Shown here: positions 20,786 through 47,779 of the stretch, one piece after another | Position numbering within the stretch: the stretch's first letter is position 1 | Layout: every line of letters begins with the position of its first letter | Assembly (NCBI RefSeq): GCF_000143685.1 | Contig: NC_014328.1 | Location: 124,001-188,000 of the forward strand | From: Clostridium ljungdahlii DSM 13528 | GTDB taxonomy: Bacteria; Bacillota; Clostridia; Clostridiales; Clostridiaceae | DNA: 64,000 nucleotides | Direction of reading: 5' to 3' | Made by a program: the position numbers and the translations under genes | Notes under the pieces: generated by a model | What the model was told of the DNA's origin: nothing | Databases searched by the model: none | Seen by the model: the letters and a program-made list of their open reading frames with translations, nothing else

Positions 20786-20795
20786 GGAGGAACAT

Positions 20796-21244: not shown

Positions 21245-21418
21245 ATGGCATATAAAATTACAGAGGATTGTGTAAGTTGTGGTTCATGTGCTTCAGAATG
21301 TCCAGCTGATGCTATAAGCCAAGGAGATAGTCAATTTGTAATAGATCCAGAAAAATGTATAGAATGTGGAAACTGTGCTAATGTTTGTCCAGTAGGAGCA
21401 CCAGTTGAAGAAAGCTAG
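21245..21418 (+). CDS. 2[4Fe-4S] ferredoxin, clostridial type
   Basis: 57 residues with two CxxCxxCxxxCP motifs, beginning at Cys9 (CVSCGSCASECP) and near Cys39 (CIECGNCANVCP). This is a small soluble electron carrier for pyruvate:ferredoxin oxidoreductase, hydrogenase and related enzymes. ATG 21245 lies nine bases after AAGGAGGTG; the frame extends upstream to 21233 but that codon is inside the ribosome site. A single-gene unit with its own terminator. Confidence 0.95.
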   Translation: MAYKITEDCVSCGSCASECPADAISQGDSQFVIDPEKCIECGNCANVCPVGAPVEES

Positions 21419-21423
21419 TTGTT

Positions 21424-21450
21424 AGGAGGTCACCATAAGGTGGCCTTTTT
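21424..21450 (+). terminator. ferredoxin gene terminator
   Basis: GGTCACC pairs with GGTGGCC across ATAA, then TTTTT. Confidence 0.8.
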
Positions 21451-21564
21451 AATTTATATAAATATCAAATTCTGTATAAAGAGTAAGTTATTTTACACGA
21501 ATAATTAATATAGATAGGAGATTAAATAAATTATAGTTAGAAAATGTACTAGATGGAGGGAAAA

Positions 21565-28287: not shown

Positions 28288-28755
28288 TATAATTTCATAA
28301 AACATTTTACAAATTTCTAATCAAATTCCATCTAAAGTTAATATACTACCATAATATTCAAAAGTCAATAACAATATTAATAAAAGTTTATAATATATGA
28401 TAAACAAGGATTTAAATGTAAGAAATTAATATTAAAATTAAGTACAAAATCAGGAAATTTGAAAAAATATTTTTTATAAAATAGTAACTAAATGGATAAT
28501 TAAATATTTAAAGTCGAAATTTTCGATAAGAAATTTAATATTGATAATCTATATGGATATAAGAGAGTATTTATATTAAAATAAGAGATGTATGATTTAA
28601 TAAATAGAAGTAGAGCAGGTTGTATGGGAATTAGTTTTGCAAAAATATATCTGTAATTTAGACACATAATGTTGATAATTTTAAAAAAAGGAAATTTTAT
28701 TTATAGAAATAGAGTATTTCTATGTGATAAAATAATAAGTAAGTAGGTGATTAAT
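28288..28755. other. gene-free A/T-rich stretch between abrB and the CCA-adding-enzyme homologue
   Basis: About 470 very A/T-rich bases. I see no ORF, strong hairpin or repeat. It must contain the promoter of the rightward gene at 28756, but no convincing match was found. Confidence 0.5.
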
Positions 28756-30156
28756 TTGGATTATGTGAAAGACTTTATTAAAAGCACAAGAGAAGTAATA
28801 AGTAAAGTAGGAGGAGAAGTTTATTTAGTTGGTGGGTATATAAGAGATAGATTAATTAGTATAACAGCTCAACCAAAGGATATAGATTTTATATTTAACG
28901 GAAATATTGAAAAATTTATGGAGGAACTCGAAAATAGACAATATAAATTTTTCCCTATAAAGCAGGAAATAGGTATATATAGATGTATGCTAGGAAATAA
29001 TTCGATAGATATATCTCTCATGGAGGGGGATTCTATTGAGGAGGATTTGAAGAAAAGAGATTTTACTATGAACGCTATAGCTATAAAACTTAGTGGAGAT
29101 AAAGTTAAAGTTATTGATCCCTTTTATGGAAGAAGATCTATTGATAATAGAATAATTAAAAGTGTAACGGATATGAGCTTAGAAAATGATCCCATCAGGA
29201 TACTTAGAGGTATTAGATTTTGTATATCTTATGGAATGCATTTTAATTTAGATACGGAAAAATGCATTGAAAAATTATGTTACAAAATAATGGATATGCC
29301 TATGGAAAGAGTCTTTAAAGAATTTATGCTTATATTGGAAAGGGATGATTATGGAAAGGCTTTTGAAGTTTTAGATAACTATGGAATACTAAAAAATATT
29401 ATACCTTATATAGAAGAATTAAAAACTATAGGAAAATGTGCATATCATATAGAAGACGTATTTACTCATATGAATTTAACTTATTGTGTATTTAAGGATA
29501 TCTTAAATGGTAAGGTAAGTGTTAAGGGATTAAATTTACATGTGTTTCAAGATAAAATAGGTGACTTTAAGTTGAGAGAGTATATGTCTTTAGCTTGCTT
29601 TTTGCATGATATTGGTAAATATGAGGCTTATAGAAAGGACGGAGACAAAGTAAGTTTTTGGGGACATGAAATGAAAGGAGCTGCTATAGCTAGGAATTTC
29701 TGTAGGAACATGAAATTCCCAAAAAAAGCAGAAAGCTATATAGAGAATATAGTAGAGGGCCATATGTATCCGCTAAAGATTTTTAAACAAAATTCTAAAG
29801 ATAAGAAGAATGATTTTTATAAGTTTTTTTCAAAATATGATGGATATATAATAGAAATACTAACTGCTGCATATTGTGATAACTATGCTACAAGAATGCT
29901 TTTGGATGTTGAAAATGAGAAAGTTAGATTTAAAATGTTTATTGAAGATATGCTAAAAGAGTATGAATTATACTGCAGTATAAACGAGAATAAGATTTTA
30001 AATGGAAATGATGTTATTCAGATTTTAAATATATCAGGGCCTGAGGTAAAAAATGCTCTTGAAGATGTGATAAGACTTAGATATTTAGGAAAAATACAAA
30101 CTAGAGAAGAAGCATTAAATTATTTAAGAGTTAAGATAAATAACAATTATATTTAA
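28756..30156 (+). CDS. CCA tRNA nucleotidyltransferase / poly(A) polymerase family protein with HD domain
   Basis: About 466 residues. Class II nucleotidyltransferase head: LVGGYIRDRL near 22, catalytic DIDF near 39, then LKKRDFTMNAIAI and LENDPIRILRGIRF. A C-terminal HD domain is visible (CFLHDIGKYEAY, then FWGHEMKGA). It either adds CCA to tRNA 3' ends or, in some clostridia, acts as an A- or CC-adding partial enzyme. The tRNA-Cys here has encoded CCA, so a repair role is likely. TTG 28756 is preferred over GTG 28747, which lies in the AGGTGA ribosome site. A perfect hairpin follows. Confidence 0.87.
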   Translation: MDYVKDFIKSTREVISKVGGEVYLVGGYIRDRLISITAQPKDIDFIFNGNIEKFMEELENRQYKFFPIKQEIGIYRCMLGNNSIDISLMEGDSIEEDLKKRDFTMNAIAIKLSGDKVKVIDPFYGRRSIDNRIIKSVTDMSLENDPIRILRGIRFCISYGMHFNLDTEKCIEKLCYKIMDMPMERVFKEFMLILERDDYGKAFEVLDNYGILKNIIPYIEELKTIGKCAYHIEDVFTHMNLTYCVFKDILNGKVSVKGLNLHVFQDKIGDFKLREYMSLACFLHDIGKYEAYRKDGDKVSFWGHEMKGAAIARNFCRNMKFPKKAESYIENIVEGHMYPLKIFKQNSKDKKNDFYKFFSKYDGYIIEILTAAYCDNYATRMLLDVENEKVRFKMFIEDMLKEYELYCSINENKILNGNDVIQILNISGPEVKNALEDVIRLRYLGKIQTREEALNYLRVKINNNYI

Positions 30157-30158
30157 AC

Positions 30159-30199
30159 TAAGCAAGAACTTATCCACATTGTGGATAAGTTCTTGCTTA
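30159..30199 (+). terminator. perfect 19-bp hairpin holding two inverted DnaA boxes
   Basis: 30159-30177 and 30181-30199 are exact complements with a 3-base loop. It sits right behind the preceding gene like a terminator but is not followed by a T-run. TTATCCACA at 30170-30178 and its complement at 30180-30188 are perfect DnaA boxes. Confidence 0.7.
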
Positions 30200-30295
30200 T
30201 GACACTATGAATTGATAAATTAGAATTTTGTTTATGCTAATATATAAAAGTTGAAATTTGATTAGAAGTGTTGTATTAATATCAATATTTATAAC

Positions 30296-30340
30296 TTATC
30301 CACAGAAAATGTTGATAAGTTCATGATTTCTGTGGACAAG
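30296..30340. promoter_or_regulatory. hairpin with inverted DnaA-box pair
   Basis: CTTATCCACAGAAA (30296-30309) pairs with TTTCTGTGGACAAG (30327-30340), one G-T pair. The left arm holds a perfect DnaA box (30297-30305), the right arm a one-mismatch box (30331-30339), and TGTTGATAA in the loop is another one-mismatch box. Confidence 0.65.
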
Positions 30341-30355
30341 TGTCTGAAAATTCGT

Positions 30356-31009
30356 TTATTCTTCTATACTTTGAAAAGTTGAGACTATAAAGTCAAATTC
30401 TTCTGCATCGGAAATTTCTCCATAACTGTCTTCTGAAATCCCAGGATAATAATACAGAATAAATTTTTCTTTAGATAAGGTATTTTCTATTATTATATAC
30501 TTTCTGTCTAATTGTACATCTTGAAGAACGGCTAGTACTGTATACCTATCACTTTCACCAGTTTTATCGTTAGTAAGATTTAAAGAAAAGCTATCATGCC
30601 TTGTAATGTTTATTTTCTTTTTATCACAATTTACGATTTTAGAACCACTTTTACATCCAAGGCAACTGTCAAATTTACAATCTGAAGTACAGTTAAGGCA
30701 TTGACAGGTGCTGCATTTCTCAAGTTGGAATAAAGATTCTAAATTATCATTTTTATAATCTTCTAGTAAAGAAATATATTTATCACTTTTTAGCTTGTTT
30801 AAAAAGCCTCCTGTATCAAGTTCACCTTGTGCAGCTTCAATTAAATCTATATATTTTTTTAAGGTTGATATTTTGGATACATATTTTCTCCTATTTAAAA
30901 TATCTTTATCTAAAAAAGGAGAAATGTTATCTATAGCATAATTTATAGCTACAAATATTTTGCCGTACTTATCTTTTTCACATTTTAAGAACTGGTCAGC
31001 TTTACTCAT
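30356..31009 (-). CDS. cysteine-rich protein with DUF1292-like C-terminal domain
   Basis: 217 residues, not confidently assigned. The first 95 residues are charged helices. A central block (about 96-126) has nine cysteines in a CxxC-rich pattern (CSTCQCLNC, then CLGC), suggesting a metal site. The C-terminal part (YTVLAVLQDVQLDRKYIIIEN, then FILYYYPG and DAEEFDFIVSTF) resembles the small DUF1292/YrzB fold. It is the last gene of a unit with a Ser-rich secreted protein and PspA (eight-base gap). It could be a regulator or zinc/redox partner of the PspA system; this is inference from position only. Confidence 0.72.
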   Translation of the reverse strand: MSKADQFLKCEKDKYGKIFVAINYAIDNISPFLDKDILNRRKYVSKISTLKKYIDLIEAAQGELDTGGFLNKLKSDKYISLLEDYKNDNLESLFQLEKCSTCQCLNCTSDCKFDSCLGCKSGSKIVNCDKKKINITRHDSFSLNLTNDKTGESDRYTVLAVLQDVQLDRKYIIIENTLSKEKFILYYYPGISEDSYGEISDAEEFDFIVSTFQSIEE

Positions 31010-31017
31010 GATATCAC

Positions 31018-31668
31018 CTAATTTTGTTTATATTTTTCCAATTCTTTATCAAGGTCAACTTCATCTAATTTTTTAAATTCTTTTTCTAAAGAATCTTCTT
31101 CTCTTAAATCTCCAAGGCCTTCAGCCAAAGATTCTTTCTTTTGAATTTTTCTTTCGATGTCATCAATATTTATTTTATTGCTTCCTGTTTCTACATTAGA
31201 TAGTATTTCATTTACTTTTTTAGAGGCTTCTGCATTATTAAATCTTGCTGCAGCCTCATCTCTATATACTCTAGTTTTGTGTATTTCTTCTTCTAGTTCT
31301 TTTAACTTACTTTTAACTGCTTCAGCTTTTTGGCAAGCATCTTTGTAACTGGCTTCTAAAGAACTGTAACTTTTATCAGCTTCTAATTTCCTAGCTAGAG
31401 CCTTTTTAGCTAATTCTTCATTTCCTTTACTCATTGCAAGTTTTACTTTTTCATCAAATTCAGTAGATACTCTTTTTGATTCTTCCATTTTCTTTTCAAT
31501 TTCATGAACATTACCTAGTATTTGTGCTGATGATAATTTAGCTTTGTTTAGGCTGTCATCCATATCCCTTAGTTTTTGATCAAGTAATTCAATAGGGTTT
31601 TCAATATCATCTAAAGTATTGTTTACTTTTGCCCTAAAAATATTTGATACTCTTTTTAATACTCCCAT
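31018..31668 (-). CDS. pspA: PspA/IM30 family envelope-stress protein
   Basis: 216 residues, almost all helical coiled coil. The N-terminal amphipathic helix (MGVLKRVSNIFRAKVNNTLD), then ENPIELLDQKLRDMDDSLNKAK, match PspA/IM30/Vipp1. These ESCRT-III-like proteins polymerise on the inner membrane when it is damaged. The ribosome site AGGAGG lies upstream of ATG 31668. It is the middle gene of a three-gene unit without the PspF/PspBC partners of enterobacteria; the flanking genes may take their place. Confidence 0.9.
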   Translation of the reverse strand: MGVLKRVSNIFRAKVNNTLDDIENPIELLDQKLRDMDDSLNKAKLSSAQILGNVHEIEKKMEESKRVSTEFDEKVKLAMSKGNEELAKKALARKLEADKSYSSLEASYKDACQKAEAVKSKLKELEEEIHKTRVYRDEAAARFNNAEASKKVNEILSNVETGSNKINIDDIERKIQKKESLAEGLGDLREEDSLEKEFKKLDEVDLDKELEKYKQN

Positions 31669-31683
31669 AAAAAATCCTCCTCA

Positions 31684-32274
31684 TTATTTTCTATTTTTAA
31701 ATTTTTTTATCTTTCTTATAATAAATAGTAATATTAAAATTAATATTACAAATTTAACAAAGCCCCAAAAGAAGTTTGCTAAAAGACTATGACCTCCACC
31801 ATATCCATAATAGCTAGAGCTGTGTCCCCAGGGTATAGGGATGGGTATAGGTATAGGAAAAAAGGACCTATGACTTCTACTGCTATAATTTTGACCGGAG
31901 CCAGAATTATTTTGGTTAGTATTTTGATTACTAGATTTTGAAGAAGAATTAGGTGTATTAGAAAAACTGCCTGACTTAAAATCTCCTCCAGAACTATTAC
32001 TGCTATTTTTTTGTTTATAGGTAGAATTAGGGGAAGAAAAGCTACCCGATTTAAAACTACCACCAGAAGATTTGGAACTACTACTATGTGAAAAACTACT
32101 TGTGCTGTGTGAAAATCCACTTGATTTAAATCCACCAGAGCTTCTTGCATATGCAGTATTGTTATTTATGTTTAAGATATTTCCCTGTGGTGTAAACAAA
32201 TCTACTGATAAGAACAAAAAAGCCATCACTAATGATATAATAAAAAGTTTTTTATTTAACTTAACTTTAGCCAC
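31684..32274 (-). CDS. Ser/Gly-rich secreted protein with C-terminal membrane anchor
   Basis: 196 residues. An N-terminal hydrophobic segment (LFIISLVMAFLFLSVDLF) is followed by about 100 residues of low complexity with repeated SGGxFKSGSFS units, an FPIPIPIPIPW stretch, a GYGGG patch, and one C-terminal membrane helix with a basic KIKKFKNRK end. The repeat region is predicted outside the membrane. No family name is certain; similar proteins occur beside pspA in clostridia. The GTG start at 32274 directly abuts a G-run, so the true start is uncertain. First gene of the pspA unit. Confidence 0.75.
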   Translation of the reverse strand: MAKVKLNKKLFIISLVMAFLFLSVDLFTPQGNILNINNNTAYARSSGGFKSSGFSHSTSSFSHSSSSKSSGGSFKSGSFSSPNSTYKQKNSSNSSGGDFKSGSFSNTPNSSSKSSNQNTNQNNSGSGQNYSSRSHRSFFPIPIPIPIPWGHSSSYYGYGGGHSLLANFFWGFVKFVILILILLFIIRKIKKFKNRK

Positions 32275-32598
32275 CCCCTTAAAGAAAATAATCTTTTCTT
32301 ATATGGTAACATAATATTTATAGCTAGTGGATATTAATATTATTAAATTTTTATAACATTAAGTATGAGAGCATTATACAGTATTATATAACTTATAACA
32401 AGTATTAGATTAACTTATTTTAGGCAATTTAAGACGGTTTAATAGGATTTATTATGGTTTATCATGATATATATAGAAAATGTAACAAATTCCCGTGGAT
32501 TTAATAAATAGTTAGTTTGTAAAGAATATATATATAACATATAATATTAATATGGTTTTTTAAGGTTAAAATAACTGTTATTTTGGAGGTTGTAAATA
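32275..32598. other. divergent intergenic region, pspA unit and DUF1836 gene
   Basis: 324 A/T-rich bases between divergent genes. Around 32433-32468 three short GGTTTA/GGATTTA units recur about every 11 bases. A small hairpin (AAAATAACTGTTATTTT) overlaps the approach to the rightward ribosome site. No gene is seen. Confidence 0.45.
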
Positions 32599-33192
32599 AT
32601 GAAAGAACACAAATTTGGCATGGAATATATAAACAAAATTGCTAAGAATATATCAGATAATACTATAGTACCTTATGAGGATTTGCCAAGGTATGATTTA
32701 TTTTTATCTCAAGTTACAGACTATCTAAATGATAAGTTTCAGGGTGAAAAATACACAAATAATATAGTACAAAATTATATTAAAAATGAAGTCATATCTA
32801 AACCCGAAGATGGGAAAAAAAGGGGATATACAAAAGTTCATTTGACACAGCTTATTTTATTAAGTTATATGAGACCTATATTAACCACAGAGGAAATAAA
32901 AAAGGTTTTTAGACTTGCCTTTAATGAGATAAACGATGGAGAAGATGATATAATATCTTGGGAAAAAGCCTATAAGATATTTTCAGATTTGCATAACAAT
33001 AGCCTTGATGATTTGATGAGTAAAGAACATTTTAATGAACAAAAATTTCAAGACATGGTAAAGGATATGGACTTAAAATCTGATGATGAAGAGAGGATAG
33101 GTATCTTTTTTGTGGTAATGTCTTTAATTTGCCAGGCGAGTGCAATTAAGAAACTAGTTCAAAATATAGTAAATAACTATGAAGGAAAGTAG
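32599..33192 (+). CDS. DUF1836 family protein (putative HTH regulator)
   Basis: 197 residues. The early segment PYEDLPRYDLFLSQVTDYLND followed by IKNEVISKPEDGKKRGYTKVHLTQLILLSYM is the DUF1836 signature; the motif resembles a MerR-like winged helix. The family is found in Firmicutes and its DNA target is unknown. ATG 32599 has TGGAGG upstream. Single-gene unit closed by a strong terminator. Confidence 0.8.
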   Translation: MKEHKFGMEYINKIAKNISDNTIVPYEDLPRYDLFLSQVTDYLNDKFQGEKYTNNIVQNYIKNEVISKPEDGKKRGYTKVHLTQLILLSYMRPILTTEEIKKVFRLAFNEINDGEDDIISWEKAYKIFSDLHNNSLDDLMSKEHFNEQKFQDMVKDMDLKSDDEERIGIFFVVMSLICQASAIKKLVQNIVNNYEGK

Positions 33193-33228
33193 AAGGGATA
33201 AAAATGAGTTTATCGTGATACTTCATGC

Positions 33229-33274
33229 AACTTACCTAGATTTATCAAATTAAATTTAGGTAAGTTATTTTTTA
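33229..33274 (+). terminator. terminator of the DUF1836 gene
   Basis: AACTTACCTAGATTTA pairs with TAAATTTAGGTAAGTT (one mismatch), followed by ATTTTTTAT. Confidence 0.85.
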
Positions 33275-33320
33275 TCCGATGACTACCTGATATAGCACTC
33301 CCATGCACCCTGTTTATGGG
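33271..33320. repeat. short dispersed repeat, copy B (5' block only)
   Basis: TATCCGATGACTACCTGATA then TAGCACTCCCATGCACCCTG. The layout TATNYGATG...ACTC..CAYGCA recurs at 11686-11716 and, less exactly, at 59871-59903. It lies at the 3' end of ispF (minus strand). Confidence 0.4.
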
Positions 33321-33324
33321 CAGC

Positions 33325-33804
33325 TTATTTTGAATTAGCTGTTAACAAACAGATGCTTTGAGCGGCTATGCCTTCTCCTTTGCCGGTAAAGCCAAGACCT
33401 TCCTCTGTAGTGGCTTTTACACTTATTACGGCTGTAGTTACATTTAGAGTTTTAGCTATATTTACCCTCATATCTTGTATGTATGAAGAAAGTTTAGGCT
33501 TTTCGGCTATTATAATAGAATCTATGTTCCCTATAGTATATCCTTTTTCATTAATCAAAGCTGATACATGTGACAGCAATTTAAGACTACATATGTTCTT
33601 ATATTTATTATCATTATCAGGGAAATGCTTGCCGATATCACCTAGACACAAGGCTCCAAGGAGACTATCCATTATTGCATGAAGAAGTACATCTGCATCT
33701 GAATGTCCCATAAGACCTTTTTCAAAAGGGATATTTACGCCTCCTAAAATAAGAGGTCTATTATAAACTAATTTATGGACATCATAACCAAGCCCGATTT
33801 TCAC
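33325..33804 (-). CDS. ispF: 2-C-methyl-D-erythritol 2,4-cyclodiphosphate synthase
   Basis: 159 residues, full length. Metal ligands Asp8 and His10 in GYDVHKL and His42 in the motif [18 protein letters not shown]; the end [18 protein letters not shown] is the family signature. It makes the cyclodiphosphate of the MEP isoprenoid pathway. ATG 33804 follows TAGGAGG. It stands alone on the minus strand, without ispD next to it. Confidence 0.96.
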
Positions 33805-33848
33805 ATTTAATTCCTCCTAGATATTTTTATTATATTTTAACACACATA

Positions 33849-33873
33849 ATAAAAAGGTGCACTTAATGGCACC
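33849..33873 (-). terminator. terminator of the small minus-strand gene
   Basis: On the minus strand GGTGC and GCACC enclose a short loop, followed by TTTTTATTATG. Confidence 0.65.
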
Positions 33874-34050
33874 TTAAGATATATCTTTAAAACTTCGAAT
33901 TATATTTTTATTATTTTTATCTTTTGTTTTATAGGATTTAAACATAGAGTAAAAGAATTTTTTATAAGTTTTCTTTATTAGTAATAGAAGTGAAAATGGA
34001 TCTTTTTTCCTATTTCTTGAAAAATCTACCTTGATAACGTTATCTTTCAT
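33874..34050 (-). CDS. small basic protein of unknown function
   Basis: 58 residues, very rich in Lys and Arg (KVDFSRNRKKDPF near the N-terminus). No family recognised. It is taken as real because AAGGTGAGG lies six bases before ATG 34050 and a terminator follows its stop; the frame also allows a GTG at 34062 but that is inside the ribosome site. It borders the DnaA-box region, and its basic character would suit a nucleic-acid-binding role, which is speculation. Confidence 0.55.
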   Translation of the reverse strand: MKDNVIKVDFSRNRKKDPFSLLLLIKKTYKKFFYSMFKSYKTKDKNNKNIIRSFKDIS

Positions 34051-34151
34051 AAATAACCTCACCTTCCATAAAAAGATCTTACTATAATAATAACATAAGT
34101 TTAAAAATATGTTAAGAAAATTACCAAAAATATTTAATCAATTGCAATTAT

Positions 34152-34186
34152 AAAATTAAGGGGACAGGTAATCCCCTTAATTTTTG
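34152..34186. terminator. isolated bidirectional terminator-like hairpin
   Basis: ATTAAGGGGA and TCCCCTTAAT are perfect complements around CAGGTAA, with a T-run on both strands. No gene ends here, so it may insulate the DnaA-box region to its right. Confidence 0.65.
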
Positions 34187-34304
34187 AGATAAAAAGGTAT
34201 ATTGTTTTGTATTGGAAAATGTTAGTTGTGTTTTATGAGCTTTGTGACTATGTGGTTAATAATATTATATGGATATAGGGTTAAATTTGTTACTAAATAA
34301 TATG

Positions 34305-34646
34305 TTATCCACATATTGTCCACAAAATTGTGGATAATGTGGATAAATGATATAAAAATAACATGTAAACAAATTTTGTTTTATAGATAATACGTTAATA
34401 ACACAACTTATTAACATATTATCTGTGGATAATGTGGAAAAGTCAACAACTAGTAGTATTTATCATATTATTAGATATGCAGTACCTATGGCTATTATTC
34501 GGAGGTATTTTTTTAATATAGCAGTAATAAGATACTTGTATTATATTTTAAATTTTATCCTAGATAGAAAATTAGAGGAAAAAGATAACTTATATTATTT
34601 AAAAATAACATGTTATCCACAAAATATGTAATAATGTTGTGGATAA
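34305..34646. promoter_or_regulatory. DnaA-box cluster
   Basis: Six perfect DnaA boxes (TTATCCACA): plus strand at 34305-34313 and 34613-34621, minus strand at 34329-34337, 34338-34346, 34424-34432 and 34638-34646. One-mismatch boxes are at 34316-34324 and 34433-34441. The first four (34305-34346) form an imperfect palindrome; 34613-34646 is another inverted pair. A/T-rich DNA (34347-34423) lies between. The 780-base gap 34051-34832 holds no credible gene. It resembles an origin or a DnaA-titration cluster, but dnaA and dnaN are not in the window. Confidence 0.72.
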
Positions 34647-34832
34647 TGTTGAATATAGTTTTTATTTCGAATCAAACGTACAATAGGTCTTATAAATGTA
34701 ACGAAAGCTAAAATAATTTACACTTTGTTAATATTTTGCTTAACAAAAATGAAGATACATGTTTTAATATGTTAGAGAAAGGATTTTTATGCGGAGTTTA
34801 ATTTAATAAAAGTGGATGGGAGATAATATATA

Positions 34833-35786
34833 ATGACAACAAGGAACAACTTTAGTAAGATTTTAAAAAATGGTGGATTGATGTTACTTGGATTAATTGT
34901 AGTCTTTGGCTTGTCCTATGAAGGATATAATTATTTTCATGGGAATAAATCAAAAACTAATAAGGTAATATCTGCTGATAAAAAAGCTGGGAGTGAAGTT
35001 AGTGAGAAAAAGACATCTAAAAGTAATGTGAAAAGTAGTAATAAACAAGATTCAGATAAGAACAAAAACATTAGACATAATGTATCTGAAGATGGAATGA
35101 AATATACTTATGATGCACAAAAAGTAAAAGATATATTGGACAATAAAGCTCCAAATGATGGAAAGAAGATAGCATTTCTAACTTTTGATGATGGACCTTC
35201 TACTACTGTGACACCAATAATATTGAATACTTTGAAAAATTATAATGTGAAAGCAACTTTTTGTCTGCTAGGAGAAAATGTAGAAAAAAATGAAAAAAGT
35301 AAGGAACTAGTAAAAGAAATACTAAAAGAGGGACATGCTATTGGAAATCATACTTATACACACAGCATGAGAAAGTTGTATCCTGGGAATAGACTTGATG
35401 TAGGTACTGTTATGGCAGAAGTTGAACAGGATAATACAGCTATAAGAAATATTGTTGGACAAGACTTTAATACTAGAGTACTAAGACTTCCAGGAGGTTA
35501 TATGTCAAGGGCATACTATCACGATCCTAATTTAAATGAATTTAATGCAAGACTAAAGGAAAAAGGTATGTACAGCATAGATTGGAATGCCTATGATTTT
35601 GATGCAGAAGGAAGAAGAAAAAATGCAGATCAGCTTTTAGAACACGTAAAAAGAAGTGTGGGTTCACAACAAAAAGTTGTTATACTTATGCATGATACTT
35701 ATGGTAAAGAAGAAACAGCTAGAGCATTACCTCAGATTATCGAATATCTAAAAGATCAGGGATATGAATTTAAAACAATAGCTTAA
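34833..35786 (+). CDS. membrane-anchored polysaccharide deacetylase (PgdA-like)
   Basis: 317 residues. One N-terminal membrane helix (about 13-31), a Lys/Ser-rich spacer to about 85, then a NodB/CE4 domain. Motif 1 is FLTFDDGPS, motif 2 GNHTYTHS, motif 3 LRLPGG, motif 4 DWNAYDFD, motif 5 LMHDTYGK; all catalytic and metal-binding residues are kept. It probably removes N-acetyl groups from peptidoglycan GlcNAc, giving lysozyme resistance. ATG 34833 follows GGGAGAT. Paralogous to the next gene. Confidence 0.92.
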   Translation: MTTRNNFSKILKNGGLMLLGLIVVFGLSYEGYNYFHGNKSKTNKVISADKKAGSEVSEKKTSKSNVKSSNKQDSDKNKNIRHNVSEDGMKYTYDAQKVKDILDNKAPNDGKKIAFLTFDDGPSTTVTPIILNTLKNYNVKATFCLLGENVEKNEKSKELVKEILKEGHAIGNHTYTHSMRKLYPGNRLDVGTVMAEVEQDNTAIRNIVGQDFNTRVLRLPGGYMSRAYYHDPNLNEFNARLKEKGMYSIDWNAYDFDAEGRRKNADQLLEHVKRSVGSQQKVVILMHDTYGKEETARALPQIIEYLKDQGYEFKTIA

Positions 35787-35956
35787 AGCAAAAAATCAGC
35801 TTATAGACTTTTGAAATTAAACTTTTTATGTATATGATTGTTTGATATAATAAATTTAGGAAAAAGCCTACTTTATTTACTGGAAAATTTGTAATCTATA
35901 TAACTAATGAGAAAAGTGAGGGTACCATCCAGGTTAGGTTGGAAAGAAGCGATAAT

Positions 35957-36856
35957 ATGAAAAATAAAAATATAAAAGGTTTAATTGCTCTAGTTTTATT
36001 GATTTTCTTTATAATTGGCGCACATAGTGTTTACAAAAATAAACTTGTATCTTCAAATGACCAAAAAAAGGTCGATAATAAATCAAATGTAAAGTCTGAT
36101 AAAAAAAATCAAACAAATATAAAAAAGGTAGAACACGTTAAGGATAGAGAATTTACAGGGAAAAATATAAAATATAACTCTCAATCTATTCCTATTTTAT
36201 ATTATCATTCCATAGATTATGAAAAGGGAAATGAATTAAGGGTGCCAAAGGAAAGATTTAGAGAACAGATGAAGTATTTAAAGGATAATGGATATACCAC
36301 CCTTACTTTAAATGAACTTTATAATTTTTTAGCTTATAATAAACCAGTACCTAATAAATCTGTAGTGATAACTCTTGATGACGGATATAAGGATAACTAT
36401 GAAAATGCTTTTCCTGTTTTAAAGGAGTTTGGATTTAAGGCTACCGTGTTTATGATTACAAGTAGTATAAATAATGAGAAAGATTTTTTAACTTCTAGTG
36501 AGTTGAAGCAGATGGATAGTTATGGTATGGATATTGAAAGCCACACCGTAAATCATGATAAGCTGGATAGGTTAACTTATGACAAACAAATACAGACTTT
36601 AAAAGATTCAAAGGAATTCTTAGAAAAACTTCTTAATAAAAAAGTAAAGTATATTGCATATCCTTATGGCAAATGGAATGAAAATGCTATAAAAGCTTTA
36701 AAGGCAGAAGGATATAGCATGGCTTTTACTACAGCAGAGACCAGCTATGAGAAGTCAATAGATTTTATAAAAAAATTTGTAATATGTTTAAAATATATAA
36801 ATACTTTAATTCGCAAGAGTAAGATTTTGCGAATTAAAAATATTAACTTGATTTAA
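35957..36856 (+). CDS. second polysaccharide deacetylase, C-terminus altered
   Basis: About 299 residues: N-terminal membrane helix, charged spacer, then a CE4 domain of the IcaB/PgaB-like type (ILYYHSID, VITLDDGYKDNY, DIESHTVNHDKL, YIAYPYGKWNE). After FTTAETSYEKS the expected last strand is replaced by a basic, low-complexity tail (IRKSKILRIKN) that overlaps a hairpin at 36815-36836. The end may be a frameshift or replaced sequence, so activity is uncertain. ATG 35957 is taken; an in-frame TTG at 35939 is possible. 170 bases downstream of its paralogue. Confidence 0.8.
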   Translation: MKNKNIKGLIALVLLIFFIIGAHSVYKNKLVSSNDQKKVDNKSNVKSDKKNQTNIKKVEHVKDREFTGKNIKYNSQSIPILYYHSIDYEKGNELRVPKERFREQMKYLKDNGYTTLTLNELYNFLAYNKPVPNKSVVITLDDGYKDNYENAFPVLKEFGFKATVFMITSSINNEKDFLTSSELKQMDSYGMDIESHTVNHDKLDRLTYDKQIQTLKDSKEFLEKLLNKKVKYIAYPYGKWNENAIKALKAEGYSMAFTTAETSYEKSIDFIKKFVICLKYINTLIRKSKILRIKNINLI

Positions 36857-36927
36857 ACCCACTACTATGCTAAATTAGATTTATAAGTTGTAACTTATAA
36901 ATTATAAAAAAGTTTATATATTTGAGT

Positions 36928-37048
36928 TTTCTAGGGTTCCGCAGTTTGTAACTGGCTGGTCCGAGAGGAAGCGCACATTTAATTGTGTACACGGAAGGAT
37001 AAAAGCCTGGGAGATATTTTTGTAATATTTCCTTAGGCTTTTTGTTTT
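36928..37048 (+). promoter_or_regulatory. guanidine-I riboswitch (ykkC) with terminator
   Basis: The aptamer core is plain: CTAGGGTTCCGC (36931), CTGGTCCGAGAGG (36956), a variable stem, then ACACGGAAGGATAAAAGCC (37000). The expression platform is a terminator, AAAGCCT...AGGCTTTTTG (37002-37046), overlapping the aptamer's 3' end. Guanidine binding should prevent termination and switch on the exporter gene downstream. Confidence 0.93.
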
Positions 37049-37120
37049 ATTTTCTTTTAAATAAGCCATGAAATATTACTATACTAATCTTAATTAATAA
37101 AATTTAGGGAGGTAAAGTTT

Positions 37121-37441
37121 ATGGAATGGATTTATTTAGTTATAGCAGGTTTTTTCGAAATAAGCTGGGCAATAGGGCTGAAGTACTCGCAGGGATTTAC
37201 AAAAATATTACCTAGCATCCTAACTGTTATAGGAATGATTGCAAGCTTCTATTTTTTATCATTGTCTTTAAAAAGATTACCATTAGGCAATGCATATGCA
37301 ATTTGGACAGGGATAGGAACTGTTGGCACTGTAGTGTTAGGTGTTATTTTATTTAAAGAACCAATTAATGTAATGCGTATGAGTTGTATTGTATTTATAG
37401 TTCTTGGAATCGTTGGTTTAAAATTAATATCAATAGACTAA
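37121..37441 (+). CDS. gdx: guanidinium exporter Gdx (SMR family)
   Basis: 106 residues, four membrane helices. The essential Glu13 is in GFFEISWAIGLKYSQGFT, a match to the Gdx/SugE branch rather than EmrE. It is a dual-topology dimer exchanging guanidinium for protons. The guanidine-I riboswitch immediately upstream fixes the substrate. ATG 37121 has GGGAGG eight bases upstream. Confidence 0.95.
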   Translation: MEWIYLVIAGFFEISWAIGLKYSQGFTKILPSILTVIGMIASFYFLSLSLKRLPLGNAYAIWTGIGTVGTVVLGVILFKEPINVMRMSCIVFIVLGIVGLKLISID

Positions 37442-37550
37442 TAATTGTATATAGCTTATAAATAACAAAAATAAATATAATTTTAATTAAAGAAAAGTGA
37501 TAAGAAGAAAATATGCAGTTATTTAGCTTTAATATGAAGGAGGAATTTTA

Positions 37551-38258
37551 ATGAAAAAGTTTGTTATTGAAGATGATTTTTGGAGTCTGTTTCCAGGTGC
37601 AAGGATAGGAATTATAGTTTGTCATGGCATAGATAACTTTATAAAAGATGAAGATCAATACAAGAATATGATTAGTAAGTCAGAAAAGGAAGCATTAAAA
37701 TATTTGGAGAATGTAGAATTCAGCAGCAATGAAGTCATAAAAGTATGGAGAGAAGCCTTCCAAAAGTTTAAAACAAAGAAAGGTGCAAGATCATCTATTG
37801 AAGCATTGTTAAAACGAGTTGATAAAGGAACTCATATAGGAACTATTAATCCGCTAGTTGATATTTACAATTCTATTTCTTTAACATATGCATTGCCTTG
37901 TGGTGGAGAGGATATGGATAAATTTGCTGGTGATATAAGATTGACTAAGGCAGTTGGAGATGAAAGCTTTATTACATTAGGAACAGATGAGAGTGCACTA
38001 CCATATGAAGGTGAAATAGTATATAAAGATAACGAAGGAGCAATTTGCAGATGTTTTAATTGGCGTGAATCAGTAAGAACAATGCTCACTGAAAATACAA
38101 GGAATGCTTTTTTGTGCATTGAATTAGTTGATGAGAGAAGAGTTAAAGATTTTGAGAATGCTTTAAAAGATTTAGCAAAAATAGTACAGGATAATTTAGG
38201 TGGAACGTGCAAGATTTCAATTCTTGATATTAACAATAAAGAAGTATTAATAGATTAA
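37551..38258 (+). CDS. B3/B4 tRNA-binding domain protein
   Basis: 235 residues matching the stand-alone B3/B4 (tRNA editing) domain of phenylalanyl-tRNA synthetase beta: NPLVDIYNSISLTYALPCGGEDMDK in the middle and LGTDESALPYEGEIVY later. Stand-alone copies are thought to edit or bind mis-charged tRNA, but substrates are unknown. ATG 37551 after AGGAGG. It lies 110 bases behind gdx and may be read with it. Confidence 0.85.
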   Translation: MKKFVIEDDFWSLFPGARIGIIVCHGIDNFIKDEDQYKNMISKSEKEALKYLENVEFSSNEVIKVWREAFQKFKTKKGARSSIEALLKRVDKGTHIGTINPLVDIYNSISLTYALPCGGEDMDKFAGDIRLTKAVGDESFITLGTDESALPYEGEIVYKDNEGAICRCFNWRESVRTMLTENTRNAFLCIELVDERRVKDFENALKDLAKIVQDNLGGTCKISILDINNKEVLID

Positions 38259-38358
38259 TTTGAGGTTAAAGGTCTAAATGACCTTTAACGAGTAACTCGT
38301 GAGCGAAAGCGGTCAGGATTGCTTGTCCCATGGTTATACGAAAGGAGAAAAAAAGGTA

Positions 38359-39048
38359 ATGAGTGGTTTTAGTTATAAAGATATTTATATGGAAGATGGA
38401 AGAAGGGTACTGGAGATTAATGTACTTCCAGAAAAGTATTGTAATTTTGATTGCATATTTTGTCCTATTGGAAGGTCGAAAAATAAGGTAGATACAAAAA
38501 TGTCATTTGATGAAATAGACAGCTCATTGATTGAACTTGGAAACAGGATAGAAAGTACAAAAGCAGAATTAGTTTTTATTAACTCAAAAGGAGAAGCCTT
38601 AGTAAATGATAAAATTGGTGATATTATTGACTTTATCAAAGACAAAGGTTTGCCTGTAAGACTACTTTCTAATGGATATTTACTAGGTAGAGATGAATAT
38701 ATGAAAATTGCTAATAAATGTGATGAGGTTGTTGGAGAAATAAAAATAATAACAGAAGAAGGCTTTCAAAAAGTTCAAAGACCTATTGAAGGATATACAT
38801 TAGCAGAATATATTTCAAACATGGTTTCTTTTAATAAACAATACAAAGGAAAATTTATATTTGAAATTACTATCATTAAAGGCTATAACGATGATGAAGA
38901 ATCAATTGAGAAGATAAAAAATATTATTAAAGCAATATCTCCTGACAAAATAATTGTAGCAAGAATGGAAGATGAAAAATTTAAGAAAAAACTTGGTATA
39001 AATGATGAACGATTTGAGGAAATTTCAAGTACATTATTAAATATTTAG
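38359..39048 (+). CDS. radical SAM protein
   Basis: About 229 residues. The [4Fe-4S] motif is CxxxCxxC at Cys28, Cys32 and Cys35 (CNFDCIFC), followed by RSKNKVD and a short TIM-barrel (LVFINSKGEALVND, VRLLSNGYLL). There is no SPASM extension. Substrate unknown; it resembles small pyruvate-formate-lyase-activase-like proteins. ATG 38359 follows AAAGGAG; a 20-codon in-frame extension to 38299 has no ribosome site. It follows the B3/B4 gene by 100 bases. Confidence 0.85.
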   Translation: MSGFSYKDIYMEDGRRVLEINVLPEKYCNFDCIFCPIGRSKNKVDTKMSFDEIDSSLIELGNRIESTKAELVFINSKGEALVNDKIGDIIDFIKDKGLPVRLLSNGYLLGRDEYMKIANKCDEVVGEIKIITEEGFQKVQRPIEGYTLAEYISNMVSFNKQYKGKFIFEITIIKGYNDDEESIEKIKNIIKAISPDKIIVARMEDEKFKKKLGINDERFEEISSTLLNI

Positions 39049-39162
39049 TAATGCTAATATATTATATTTTTATAAAACGTCGTAAGTGTAAATTGTAATA
39101 TTTAATCAAGAATTGCAGTAAATGATAAGAAATAAAATAGCGAAAGAATTAGAGGTGTAATT

Positions 39163-39651
39163 ATGTTTAGAGATATGAGAAGAAAAAAACAATTATTATC
39201 CAAAGAAGAGACAATTGAAATTCTAAAGTTATGTACATCTGGCGTCTTAGGTGTAATTGGTGACGATGATTATCCATATACCGTTCCAATAAGTTATGTT
39301 TTTAAAGACGGCAAACTATTTATGCATGGTGCAAAACAAGGGCATAAGATTGACAGCATTAAAAGGAATGATAAAGTGACATTTTGTGTTATAGAAAAAG
39401 ACGAAGTAATACAAAAAACTTTTACTACCCATTTTCGGAGTGTTTCCATATTTGGCAGAGCAAGGATTCTTACAAACGATTCCGATAGGAGATATGCCAT
39501 TGAAAGTTTAGTTGAAAAATATTCACCTGACTATATTAAAGAAGGGCAGCAAGAAATTGAAAGAGAATGGAATAGAGTATGTTTAATTGAAGTCAAAATC
39601 GAACATATGACAGGTAAGGCAGCTATAGAAATTGTTAATAGTAATAAATAA
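39163..39651 (+). CDS. pyridoxamine 5'-phosphate oxidase-like flavoprotein (NimA-like)
   Basis: 162 residues with a split-barrel FMN fold: SGVLGVIGDDDYPYTVPISYVFKDGKLFMHGA and then HKIDSIKRNDKVTFCVI match the PPOX/NimA group, which includes 5-nitroimidazole reductases. Likely an FMN- or F420-binding reductase of unknown substrate. ATG 39163 after AGAGGTG. Closed by a terminator; the IS110 element begins shortly after. Confidence 0.87.
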   Translation: MFRDMRRKKQLLSKEETIEILKLCTSGVLGVIGDDDYPYTVPISYVFKDGKLFMHGAKQGHKIDSIKRNDKVTFCVIEKDEVIQKTFTTHFRSVSIFGRARILTNDSDRRYAIESLVEKYSPDYIKEGQQEIEREWNRVCLIEVKIEHMTGKAAIEIVNSNK

Positions 39652-39685
39652 ACCAGTTCGTATTATTCTTATTTTGTTTACTAAT

Positions 39686-39712
39686 AAAAAGGCAGAGTTA
39701 TGCCTTTTTTAT
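39686..39712 (+). terminator. terminator after the PPOX gene
   Basis: AAAAAGGCA pairs with TGCCTTTTT, ending in a T-run. Confidence 0.88.
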
Positions 39713-39829
39713 TTTATATGAAGATTAAAAACGAATAATAAGAAAGTATTTTGAGCAAAGCAAATAAACTATTAAAATAATTAATAGTTAAAATTTTACA
39801 TAAAACTATTAGTCTAGTTATAATATTGC

Positions 39830-41002
39830 TTAGTTAATAGGGACATAATCCTTGTTATCTCTCATAACAGCAAAAACAATGCGTGTTAATTTATTAGCTG
39901 TAGCTCCTATTGCAACTAAGTGATGTTTACCCTCACTTCGTTTTTTATTATAATATTCATTAAGAGGACTGTCATGTAAGACACATGTTGAAGCAGATAA
40001 AAATAAGGCACGTCTAAGATACGGTGAACCTCTTTTGGACATTTTATTGTTATTAGATAGAAATTGTCCTGATTGCTTAACAGTAGGATCAATGCCAGCA
40101 TAAGCTACAAGACTAGAAGAGTTTTTAAAACGTTTAATATCACCAATTTCACTAAGAATAATAGCAGCAGTTACGGAACCAATTCCAGGAATAGTTGTTA
40201 GATGGCAGTCAAATTTACTATAATAAAACTCAATTTCTGAATCTAGAGATTTCATTTGTTTTTCAAGGAATAGTATTTGACTAATAAGTTGTTTTATTTG
40301 AAATTTAAAAGCTTTTTTAGCTATCTTAATGCCAAAGGTATTTTTAGCTGCATTTTGAATCTCATCAGCCTTATTAAAACCAAGTCTTCCCTTACTTTTT
40401 GTTTTCAATAGTTTAGTTAAATCATTTATATCCAATTCTAATATTCCTTCTGGAGTTTGGCATTTTTCGAGAACAGCTTTAGAACTTGCACCCCAAATAT
40501 CAGAAAATAGTTTATCATATTCAGGGAAAATTTGGTCAAGTACTGTAATTATTCTGCATTTAAGTTCAGAAATTTCAGTAGTTAAAGAAAGTTTATATCT
40601 GCAAAGCTGTCTTAGAGCAAGAAGTTTATCATCACAAAGTTTTGTATTAGTAAATTTACCAAATCTAATAACTTCAGCAATTATAAAAGAATCTTTCGTA
40701 TCGTTTTTAGTTTTACGAATATACAAATTTCTAAAACTATCTGATTGAATAGGATTAATAACGTTTATCTCATATCCCTTTGTTAGTAAAAATGAATATA
40801 ATGACAGCCAATAATGCCCCGTAGCTTCAAGTCCAAATATAACTTTAGAATTGCCAGTATATTTTTTTATATGTTCAATTAATTTATTTCCACCGCTATG
40901 GGAATTAGCAAACTTTATAGATTTGCCGATTATGGAGCCAGTATCATCAATAATAGTAGCTTCATGATTATTCTTACCAATATCAACACCAACAATATAC
41001 AT
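39830..41002 (-). CDS. IS110-family transposase (DEDD/serine recombinase)
   Basis: 390 residues, intact. The N-terminal RuvC-like DEDD domain starts GVDIGKNNHEATIID and has GLEATGHYW, then a helical middle and the C-terminal Transposase_20 domain with LTTIPGIGSVTAAIILSEIGD and the conserved serine region SKRGSPYLRRALFLSAS. These enzymes use a bridge RNA to choose donor and target. The frame is unbroken, so the copy may be active. ATG 41002. Confidence 0.95.
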   Translation of the reverse strand: MYIVGVDIGKNNHEATIIDDTGSIIGKSIKFANSHSGGNKLIEHIKKYTGNSKVIFGLEATGHYWLSLYSFLLTKGYEINVINPIQSDSFRNLYIRKTKNDTKDSFIIAEVIRFGKFTNTKLCDDKLLALRQLCRYKLSLTTEISELKCRIITVLDQIFPEYDKLFSDIWGASSKAVLEKCQTPEGILELDINDLTKLLKTKSKGRLGFNKADEIQNAAKNTFGIKIAKKAFKFQIKQLISQILFLEKQMKSLDSEIEFYYSKFDCHLTTIPGIGSVTAAIILSEIGDIKRFKNSSSLVAYAGIDPTVKQSGQFLSNNNKMSKRGSPYLRRALFLSASTCVLHDSPLNEYYNKKRSEGKHHLVAIGATANKLTRIVFAVMRDNKDYVPIN

Positions 41003-41039
41003 AAAAAGTCACCTTCATTTAAAAGATTATTTAGATAGA

Positions 41040-41260
41040 ATCCTCTCATCTATGCAAGTTACAGCCTAGTTCGATATACGAAAAATTGTAAAAATACAAT
41101 TGACATCCAGCTCATACGCAACATCTCGCAAAGAAGAGGCAGCAGTCTCTGCTCCGAGGTCAAAAAGCCTCATGGGGGTGAGCGTAAACCTCTATCTATA
41201 CGAGAATATTGTCTCAAAAGATGAGTTATTAAACAATAGTTATATAAATGAACTTTAGAA
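41040..41260 (-). ncRNA. putative IS110 bridge RNA region
   Basis: The IS110 leader upstream of the transposase (minus strand) is G/C-richer than its surroundings and holds nested hairpins: GGAGCAG/CTGCTGCC (about 41139-41160) and GAGGTTTACGCTCACC/ATGAGGC (41166-41195). In this family a 150-200-base bridge RNA is read from exactly this place. Limits and loops are not resolved here. Confidence 0.55.
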
Positions 41261-41303
41261 CTATAAAGATGTTATATAGATTAAAGTTTTAGGCAGGAAA
41301 ACT

Positions 41304-41530
41304 ATTATTTAATGTTTACATGTTTATCATACTAGGGGGGTGGGCTAATAAAGACCAAGGAATATATACTTTGCACAGAGTATATGTAAGTGAAAGATAT
41401 GGAATGAATGAATTTAAAAGACGACTTACAAATAGTAATTACGAAAATGCCAATAAGTAAAGACTTTTATCTAGGGTAATACGTTCAAGTAATAGGATAA
41501 TTATAATTAAGATATTTTGGGGGGTAAAAA
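41304..41530. other. upstream region of the glucosaminidase gene
   Basis: Between the IS110 end and the gene at 41531. A run of G at 41335-41342 and again at 41518-41524 (ribosome site). No known riboswitch is recognised and no ORF is convincing. Confidence 0.4.
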
Positions 41531-45844: not shown

Positions 45845-47779
45845 ATGACCAAGAAAACTTATTATATTACTACGCCAATTTATTATCCATCTGCAAAACT
45901 TCATATAGGAAACACCTATACTACTGTAGCAGCAGATGCTCTTGCAAGATTTAAAAGGCTTACAGGTTATGATGTTATGCTTTTGACAGGAACAGATGAA
46001 CATGGACAGAAGATTCAGAGGTTAGCTGAAGCAAAGGGTGTTACTCCTATAGAATATGTAGACGAAATAGTGGCTGGAATTAAAAAGTTGTGGGATATGA
46101 TGAATATAAGCTATGACAAGTTTATACGAACTACAGAGGACTACCATGTTAAGGCAGTTCAAAAAATATTTAAGAAATTGTATGATCAAGGTGATATATA
46201 TAAGGGAAGTTATGAAGGGTTATATTGTACACCTTGTGAATCCTTTTGGACAGAAACCCAAGCAGCAGACGGTAAGTGTCCTGATTGTGGAAGGCCAGTA
46301 GAAAAAACTAAAGAAGAAGCATATTTCTTTAAAATGTCAAAATATGCGCCTAAACTTATAAAGTATATTGAGGATCATCCTGACTTTATACAGCCTGAAT
46401 CTAGAAAAAATGAAATGTTAAATAACTTCTTAAGGCCTGGACTCCAGGATTTGTGTGTTTCTAGGACATCTTTTAATTGGGGAATACCTGTAACTTTTGA
46501 TGAAAAACACGTGATATATGTTTGGATAGATGCTCTTGCAAATTATATAACAGCTCTTGGATATGGCAGTAAAAATGAAGAATTGTATAATAAGTATTGG
46601 CCGGCAGATGTACATCTAGTTGGTAAAGACATACTGAGATTTCATACGATTTATTGGCCTATAATGCTTATGGCATTGGGACTTCCTGTTCCTAAAAAGG
46701 TATTCGGACATGGATGGCTTTTGGTAGATGGGGGAAAAATGTCAAAGTCGAAGGGAAATGTAGTAGATCCTGTAGTTTTAGTAGATAATTTTGGTGCAGA
46801 TGCTGTTAGATATTATCTATTGAGAGAAATACCATTTGGTTCAGATGGATTGTTTAATAATGAAATATTTATAAAAAGAATTAATGCAGATTTAGCTAAT
46901 GATTTGGGAAACTTGTTATCTAGAACTTGTGCTATGGTTGAAAAATATTTTGATGGAGTAGTACAAGAACCAACAAAAAAAGAGCAAATTGATGATGAAC
47001 TTATAAAGTTAGCATTAGAAACTCCTGAAAAAGTAGAAAAGAATATGAATGATTTAAGAATACCAGAAGCTTTAGATAATATATGGGATCTTATAACTAG
47101 ATCAAATAAATATATAGATGAAACTACACCATGGATATTAGCTAAAGATGAGTCTAAAAAAGATAGGCTTGGAACAGTGCTTTACAATCTTTTAGAGTCA
47201 CTTAGAATAATATCTATATGTGTTTCTCCATATTTACCTGAAACAAGTGCTAAAATGTATAAACAACTTAATACAAACGTTGTTTCCTGGGATAGTATAA
47301 CTTCTTTTAATGGAACCAAGGCTGGAACAAAGATAAGCAAGGGAGAACTATTATTTCCTAGAATAGATGTAGATAAAAAAATAGAGGAGTTAAATAAATT
47401 AAAAGAAGAAAAAAAAGCAGCACAGAATTCCAATGAAAAATCTTTAAAAAAACAAATAACTATAGATGATTTTGATAAAATAGATTTAAGAGTTGCTAAA
47501 GTTTTAAAATGTGAAAACATAAAAGGATCCAATAAACTACTTAAATTTCAACTTCAAATGGGAAAGGAACAGAGGCAGGTAGTTTCAGGAATTGCAAAGT
47601 ATTATAAGCCAGAAGAGCTTGTGGGCAAATATGTAGTATTTGTAGCGAATTTAAAACCTGTAAAATTGAAAGGCGAAATTTCAGAAGGAATGATATTATC
47701 TGCAGCTTCAGATGATGATAGTAAATTATCCATACTATCACTTTCTGATGAAATCCCAAGTGGAAGCACAGTAAGGTAA
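45845..47779 (+). CDS. metG: methionyl-tRNA synthetase
   Basis: 644 residues, class I. The HIGH-type motif is LHIGN in PIYYPSAKLHIGNTYTT, the zinc knuckle is CTPC...CPDCG near 127-147, KMSKS occurs as KMSKSKGN near 300, and a C-terminal EMAP-II-like tRNA-binding domain (about 545-644, IDLRVAKVLKCENIKGSNKLLKF) dimerises the enzyme. It charges tRNA-Met. The ATG at 45845 follows AGGGAGAG. Controlled by the T-box upstream. tatD follows as in Bacillus. Confidence 0.97.
   Translation: MTKKTYYITTPIYYPSAKLHIGNTYTTVAADALARFKRLTGYDVMLLTGTDEHGQKIQRLAEAKGVTPIEYVDEIVAGIKKLWDMMNISYDKFIRTTEDYHVKAVQKIFKKLYDQGDIYKGSYEGLYCTPCESFWTETQAADGKCPDCGRPVEKTKEEAYFFKMSKYAPKLIKYIEDHPDFIQPESRKNEMLNNFLRPGLQDLCVSRTSFNWGIPVTFDEKHVIYVWIDALANYITALGYGSKNEELYNKYWPADVHLVGKDILRFHTIYWPIMLMALGLPVPKKVFGHGWLLVDGGKMSKSKGNVVDPVVLVDNFGADAVRYYLLREIPFGSDGLFNNEIFIKRINADLANDLGNLLSRTCAMVEKYFDGVVQEPTKKEQIDDELIKLALETPEKVEKNMNDLRIPEALDNIWDLITRSNKYIDETTPWILAKDESKKDRLGTVLYNLLESLRIISICVSPYLPETSAKMYKQLNTNVVSWDSITSFNGTKAGTKISKGELLFPRIDVDKKIEELNKLKEEKKAAQNSNEKSLKKQITIDDFDKIDLRVAKVLKCENIKGSNKLLKFQLQMGKEQRQVVSGIAKYYKPEELVGKYVVFVANLKPVKLKGEISEGMILSAASDDDSKLSILSLSDEIPSGSTVR

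Follow-up and report, generated by a model that had tools for sequence, protein, structure and literature searches.

What is a dense cluster of DnaA boxes doing far from dnaA? The DNA analysed here, referred to throughout as the window, is a 64,000-nucleotide stretch of the Clostridium ljungdahlii DSM 13528 chromosome (genome positions 124,001-188,000), in which a sequence-only reading had reported six perfect and two near DnaA boxes within 342 bases, lacking dnaA or dnaN as neighbours. All eight boxes were located at 34305..34646 by a scan of the 64-kb window. Exact copies of TTATCCACA, given as the consensus DnaA box of low-G+C Firmicutes in an excerpt of PMC5749712, occur at 34305 (+), 34329 (-), 34338 (-), 34424 (-), 34613 (+) and 34638 (-), and boxes with a single mismatch are found at 34316 (+; TTGTCCACA) and 34433 (-; TTTTCCACA). 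The first four boxes do form an imperfect palindrome of 42 bases (34305-34346); an inverted pair is made up of the last two (34613-34646). A further box at 34408 (+; TTATTAACA) had been overlooked and forms a module with those at 34424 and 34433. Also absent from the earlier list is a partner cluster 4 kb away, at 30170-30339; the two are designated here cluster A (30170-30339) and cluster B (34305..34646). The isolation of cluster B from dnaA and dnaN is borne out by the genome, in which the single dnaA match lies at genome positions 68-1450, about 157 kb off.

As had been claimed, this density exceeds chance. The window contains 11 exact boxes, whereas 100 dinucleotide shuffles average 0.72 and never exceed 3; the whole genome contains 102 (two oriC1 boxes included). 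Cluster B is the densest exact-box site genome-wide, with six in spans of 342 to 1000 bases, and the next densest sites, namely oriC1, oriC2 and the neighbouring cluster at 30170-30339, hold three each; random placement of 102 boxes never brought more than three into 500 bases in 2000 trials. Exact boxes are enriched toward the origin, with 31 of the 102 within 250 kb of it compared to 11 expected, and clusters A and B together with oriC itself account for 15 of those 31. Both oriC1 and oriC2 of C. ljungdahlii carry the same box sequence as the clusters, and its DnaA has a standard DNA-binding domain. The modules described below were defined with a looser box, TTRTNMACA, which summarizes the variants seen in relatives; a search for DnaA boxes in C. 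difficile employed TTWTNCACA with at most one mismatch (PMC7561715, excerpt). Judged from these sequences, clusters A and B are probably DnaA-assembly sites outside the origin that tune the initiation of replication.

The boxes are arranged in modules, each of which contains boxes that face one another. Module B1 (34305..34346, +) presents TTATCCACA at 34305 and TTGTCCACA at 34316 on the forward strand and TTATCCACA at both 34329 and 34338 on the reverse strand (geometry +0,+11,-24,-33), its consensus being two boxes, 4 bp and two inverted boxes. Module B2 (34408..34441, +) sets TTATTAACA at 34408 (+) against TTATCCACA at 34424 (-) and TTTTCCACA, with one mismatch, at 34433 (-), in the geometry +0,-16,-25. 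The consensus of B2 resembles the B1 quartet with the gap widened to 7 bp and the first box degenerate; in the copy of C. ljungdahlii that box is unrecognisable. The last inverted pair of exact boxes (34613..34646, +) places 34613 (+) and 34638 (-) at a spacing of 25. In cluster A, module A1 (30159..30199, unstranded) is a box pair, 30170 (+) and 30180 (-), within a 41-base palindrome with a 19-pair stem, and module A2 (30296..30339, +) is comprised of TTATCCACA at 30296 (+), TTATCAACA at 30310 (-) and TTGTCCACA at 30331 (-), in the geometry +0,-14,-35. The gaps between facing boxes are thus 4 bp in B1, 5 bp in A2 and 7 bp in B2. The information contents of the module consensuses are inflated inside the boxes, because the instances had been found by those boxes.

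Cluster A follows immediately upon the end of a poly(A)-polymerase/CCA-transferase-like gene (28747..30156, +), and orfX (30356..31009, -), which encodes 217 aa and has no Pfam or NCBIfam match, converges on it from the other side, with a PspA/IM30 family gene beyond (31018..31668, -). The orfX gene accompanies pspA and cluster A in several genera. Cluster B lies between ispF (YgbB family; 33325..33804, -), with respect to which it is upstream, and a deacetylase gene. Beyond cluster B lies the widespread polysaccharide deacetylase copy (35939..36856, +), which 11 of the 12 further genus regions that were read have in the same place; the twelfth (G007) is on a contig that ends earlier. An additional polysaccharide deacetylase (34833-35786) intervenes between that copy and cluster B, and of the genus regions read, those of C. 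ljungdahlii and its two nearest relatives alone contain it. These two relatives lack the block at 36857-41530, in which a gene of the small multidrug-resistance family is accompanied by a B3/4-domain gene, a radical SAM gene and an IS110-type transposase. The holB, abrB and metG order that the earlier reading had taken as origin-proximal could be recovered in part: holB (18931-19875) and metG (45845-47779) were confirmed and abrB was not identified. The interval from the RicT/YaaT gene to the next listed gene (20786-21552) contains only ORFs of 67 and 61 aa; in B. subtilis, where the gene order is otherwise similar, the DnaA regulator gene yabA adjoins yaaT.

Since it outnumbers each half of oriC in exact boxes and has AT-rich surroundings, cluster B might be regarded as a second replication origin or an origin-like unwinding site, as had been suggested for it, but such a role is extremely improbable and that part of the sequence-only reading is set aside. 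A scan for the DnaA-trio found CTACTACTATTATTACTA in oriC2 and none at window positions 29001-36000, the GC skew is positive in all eight 8-kb bins of the window without a change of sign, and dnaA, with its single match near the start of the genome (68-1450), is not adjacent. Outside the clusters and oriC, the scattered exact TTATCCACA boxes also keep a single strand preference per chromosome arm, 5+/36- on the right and 34+/12- on the left. The sequence TAGTAGTA at about 34450 was considered as a DnaA-trio and rejected; judged by eye, it lies on the opposite side of the boxes compared to the oriC2 trio, and it belongs to a longer hairpin in one relative. Clusters A and B share the box sequence and the inverted pairs of clostridial oriC1 and oriC2 (C. 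ljungdahlii oriC; PMC7561715, excerpt), but differ from them in having no adjacent dnaA or dnaN, no DnaA-trio found and another geometry.

The interpretation of the clusters as DnaA-assembly sites can be weighed against the conservation of their modules. Across 13 genomes of the genus, C. ljungdahlii included, A2 is present with identical offsets in all 13 and B1 in nine; G003, G004 and G011 have an inner B1 offset of 15 rather than 13 and miss the first box, and the G007 contig stops short of the B1 site. The last pair, at its spacing of 25, occurs among these 13 genomes only in C. ljungdahlii, G006 and G008. Intergenic DNA is otherwise largely dissimilar across the genus (judged by eye), and that the A2 geometry is kept in 13/13 despite an identity of only 51-64% in the neighbouring poly(A)-polymerase-like protein, outside two near relatives, counts for the DnaA-site reading. 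In the two near relatives themselves, the six exact boxes and those at 34316 and 34408 are unchanged while nearby bases differ, and the near box at 34433 is altered in one of the two. The nearest named relatives among the fetched loci are C. ljungdahlii ERI-2 and C. ragsdalei. One relative locus, L004, bears an insertion of more than 100 bases soon after its last box pair (6260-6293 of that locus) and a long hairpin after B2.

The outcome that had been named in advance as speaking against the cluster, genes kept and boxes lost among relatives, did not occur: the geometry is met again at the corresponding position across the genus and in further genera of the family. The proposed link to the deacetylase gene at 34833 does not hold, given the narrow distribution of that gene in the genus regions read, and among 80 fetched loci of its homologues the cluster is carried only by those of the two near relatives. 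The gene was likewise discarded as a conservation anchor, as only the two near relatives share the neighbourhood among the 27 loci compared (L004-L030, of the 80). The right anchors are ispF and the poly(A)-polymerase-like gene.

Beyond the genus, the modules were sought in a family set of 206 genomes with 46 genus labels, with the reversed pattern as control. The A2 pattern (at most one mismatch) was found in 86/206 genomes from 26 genera, compared to 1/206 for its reverse; B1 (at most two mismatches) in 78/206 from 21 genera, one copy each, compared to 0/206; and exact B2 in 74/206 from 25 genera, again compared to 0/206, the B2 of C. ljungdahlii with its one mismatch standing outside those 74. 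A class-wide draw of 391 genomes yielded B1 (at most one mismatch) in 9 of the 19 belonging to the family and in none of the 372 others. Viral spread was considered and rejected, as exact B1 had no matches in viral contigs. The largest genus, g3, is mostly without these geometries (A2 in 7/68 genomes, B1 in 1/68 and B2 in 0/68). The seven A2 loci of g3 lack the usual neighbours, and one of them, L135, shows weak similarity to a portion of DnaA. Seven g3 regions were read, three of them without a cluster near ispF and four with clusters of other geometry, which are perhaps a reshaped version of the element. Such other-geometry clusters lie about 3-4 kb upstream of ispF at the g3 loci L197, L198, L199 and L255.

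The gene context of the modules was read from the flanks of 60 matched loci, a subset comprised of 30 A2 and 30 B1. Of the 30 B1 loci fetched, 27 have ispF inside the 1.5-kb flanks of the module, and 23 of the 30 A2 loci lie beside genes of the neighbourhood (pspA, DUF1836, poly(A)-polymerase-like, nlpC or deacetylase); the seven exceptions all come from g3. The reverse approach began from ispF, which is present in 199 of the 206 genomes, and used 58 regions picked by hand, partly for pattern hits, some of them cut by contig ends. Of these 58 regions, 43 contain one or several clusters of at least three boxes and 15 contain none, a proportion that is not a random-sample rate because the regions were chosen partly for hits; together they contain 89 box clusters, compared to 0.4 expected from dinucleotide shuffles. 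Two loci chosen for hits away from ispF (L215 and L250) were excluded from this count, and loci L086-L091 and L110-L121 contributed little to the analysis.

The constancy with which ispF adjoins B1 raises the alternative that DnaA bound at cluster B acts as a replication-coupled promoter switch for ispF, the deacetylase or both. Divergent ORFs flank B1 in 27 of its 61 instances, so transcription control would be possible there, but in 31 of the 61 its setting is tandem (24) or convergent (7), the remaining three being at an edge. Cluster A lies between gene ends: among 53 distinct A2 instances (ORFs called mechanically, as for B1), a set in which the seven hits of g3 and some near-identical copies from closely related species are counted, 31 are flanked by convergent ORFs, 12 by tandem and six by divergent ones, with two inside an ORF and two at an edge, a distribution more in keeping with a DNA site than with a promoter. 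In addition, in regions of g9, g14, g18 and one of the two of g12, A2 lies near the deacetylase while the genes that flank cluster A here were not found in the fetched stretch, and control of one promoter would leave two clusters unexplained. A promoter switch is thus an unlikely account of cluster B.

The comparison with B. subtilis that the earlier reading had drawn holds with respect to position, since the clusters lie 154-158 kb from dnaA (68-1450) in a single-contig genome of 4,630,065 b. Among 23 genomes with a listed dnaA on the same contig, distances being read by hand (G086, G087, G113, G176, G177 and G191, among others, are absent from the list), 16 have all their A2 and B1 hits at 78-230 kb from dnaA, C. 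ljungdahlii included (G000, G002, G003, G004, G010, G011, G088, G089, G106, G110, G131, G132, G138, G143, G147 and G148). The other seven have hits farther away, at about 317-890 kb: G118 (A2 at about 492 kb), G126 (A2 at about 94 kb, B1 at 890 kb), G130 (B1 at 869 kb), G134 (A2 at 317 kb, B1 at 505 kb), G161 (A2 at about 736 kb), G162 (A2 at 366 kb) and G179 (A2 at 658 kb). In G118, G162 and G179 the A2 hits are distant from ispF too and may therefore be other sites. The DnaA-box clusters of B. subtilis are reportedly oriC-proximal as well, to go by the title of a 2012 report by Okumura et al. Deletion of six of them results in early initiation (PMC5295017 and PMC13220808, excerpts), and the excerpt of PMC5295017 also states that no cluster with a significant role has been identified in B. 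subtilis. Common to the two systems are DnaA boxes outside oriC and close to it; the difference, drawn from the clostridial side and without B. subtilis sequences in the comparison, is the fixed, repeated geometry and the ispF/pspA neighbourhood described here for Clostridiaceae. By analogy, the place of clusters A and B fits the B. subtilis precedent of origin-near DnaA holding.

Inverted boxes are by nature able to pair, and all five stretches fold better than their shuffles (z of -9.1 for A1, -4.7 for A2, -5.4 for B1, -2.9 for B2 and -2.7 for the last pair), as inverted boxes must. This is the starting point for the view that the clusters are RNA or cruciform structures, such as bidirectional terminators, with stems that resemble DnaA boxes by chance. 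A1 would be the best example, as a 19-pair stem between convergent genes, with outer arms that in part of the genus change in sequence and stay complementary. Its arms extend at least 9 bases beyond the boxes in five of nine distinct pairs of the genus, compared to 0-3 bases in nine pairs from g10 and g17, where the box pair is kept nonetheless, and the mean extension over all pairs is 3.9 compared to 0.9 for shuffled partners. Long only in part of one genus and short in g10 and g17, the A1 arms look like a local addition; an A1-spaced pair is found upstream of A2 in 19 of 53 A2 instances. The outer flanks also pair slightly above shuffled ones at A2 (boxes 0/14; 1.68 vs 0.76, sd 0.15) and B1 (0/33; 1.40 vs 0.97, sd 0.14), not clearly so at B2 (0.99 vs 0.95, sd 0.02), so that at the former two some constraint on palindrome or structure may reach past the boxes. 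The variable letters of the facing boxes in A2, B1 and B2, however, mostly match no better than those of shuffled partners: two of 24 tests, in which kinship was ignored, gave p <=0.001 (N5 of A2 0/35 and N5 of B2 0/25), and shared ancestry could also produce these two. No terminator-like site overlaps A or B and no Rfam family reached its cut-off; identity with an RNA family was rejected, the only candidates being three microRNA-model matches over A1, A2 and B1, all far below cut-offs. Structures with only fortuitous boxes are, on this evidence, a very unlikely explanation.

How, then, might the clusters act as DnaA-assembly sites? In each module DnaA would bind the box of TTATCCACA type, short DnaA runs would build upon the adjacent weaker boxes, and two such runs would face each other across a fixed gap, from two boxes and two inverted boxes in B1 and from one box and two inverted ones in A2 and B2. 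What speaks for an ordered DnaA complex is the shared box, the standard DnaA and the constancy of the spacing. Being close to oriC, the clusters would double soon after initiation; they would hold DnaA and perhaps change its oligomeric or nucleotide state, and the DnaA available to oriC would in consequence be lowered or reset, which would set the timing and frequency of initiation. Observations that count against a DnaA-site reading are the general lack of the geometries in g3, the 15 of 58 ispF regions without a cluster, the far hits in seven of 23 genomes and the change at 34433.

A more specific relative of this mechanism is a DARS-like one, in which DnaA molecules facing inward on boxes I and II force the release of ADP and so recharge DnaA ahead of the next initiation; by analogy with E. 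coli this is possible, if doubtful. DARS is described as having this orientation of box I, equal spacing at both sites and head-to-head contact, whereby ADP-DnaA loses its nucleotide (PMC5742627, excerpt). In the E. coli K-12 regions, chosen by gene neighbours and geometry, DARS1 has the spacing +0,-14,-26, and the DARS2-core candidate has the same spacing with three mismatches. Like DARS1 and DARS2, A2 and B2 possess a three-box core in which box I is opposite to II and III, in the same order, and the I-II offset of A2, 14 bases with a 5-bp gap, is that of DARS1 and of the DARS2-core candidate. The II-III spacing differs, however, with gaps of 12 bp in A2 and 0 in B2 compared to 3 in DARS1 (-14,-35 and -16,-25 vs -14,-26), and the exact DARS geometry (+0,-14,-26) was found in only 11/206 family genomes, C. 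ljungdahlii not among them. Moreover, the oriC1 of C. ljungdahlii has an inverted triplet of its own (+0,-11,-23, read by eye), so orientation alone is not specific to DARS. E. coli datA is, like clusters A and B, a non-coding DnaA-box cluster outside oriC, but its essential boxes all run in one direction and it requires IHF (PMC5742627, excerpt), whereas the boxes here face each other. Clusters A and B may thus work like a DARS or like a sink, although by spacing they are not a DARS, and the role of a sink seems more likely than that of a nucleotide-exchange site.

In B. subtilis, datA and DARS are absent, as are Hda and SeqA, and both the existence of regulators of the DnaA nucleotide state and the balancing of DnaA-ATP and DnaA-ADP are described as open questions in excerpts of a 2026 review (PMC13220808). 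One tentative proposal, which we would put forward with considerable reserve, is that the paired arrays are DnaA-remodelling elements of Clostridiaceae, independently shaped, whose facing runs would exchange or hydrolyse nucleotide as a Gram-positive counterpart to the datA/DARS cycle. DnaA-box clusters outside oriC are themselves a known kind; in the parts available of the open-access literature matches listed, no description of Clostridiaceae DnaA-box clusters outside oriC appears, nor one of the fixed geometry of repeated modules, their paired arrangement or their spread through Clostridiaceae. Two non-coding elements of fixed geometry, findable with a simple pattern in many Clostridiaceae, constitute a defined DNA target with which a sink or DnaA-remodelling role can be tested in a Gram-positive lineage, and the gaps of 4, 5 and 7 bp between facing boxes offer a natural spacing series for DnaA assembly. 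Relatives also have exact boxes in inverted pairs or triplets at sites apart from those treated above, namely at G004:C1:3054986-3055030 (L113) and at G012:C6:21119 and C40:17694 of the same genome (L119 and L121).
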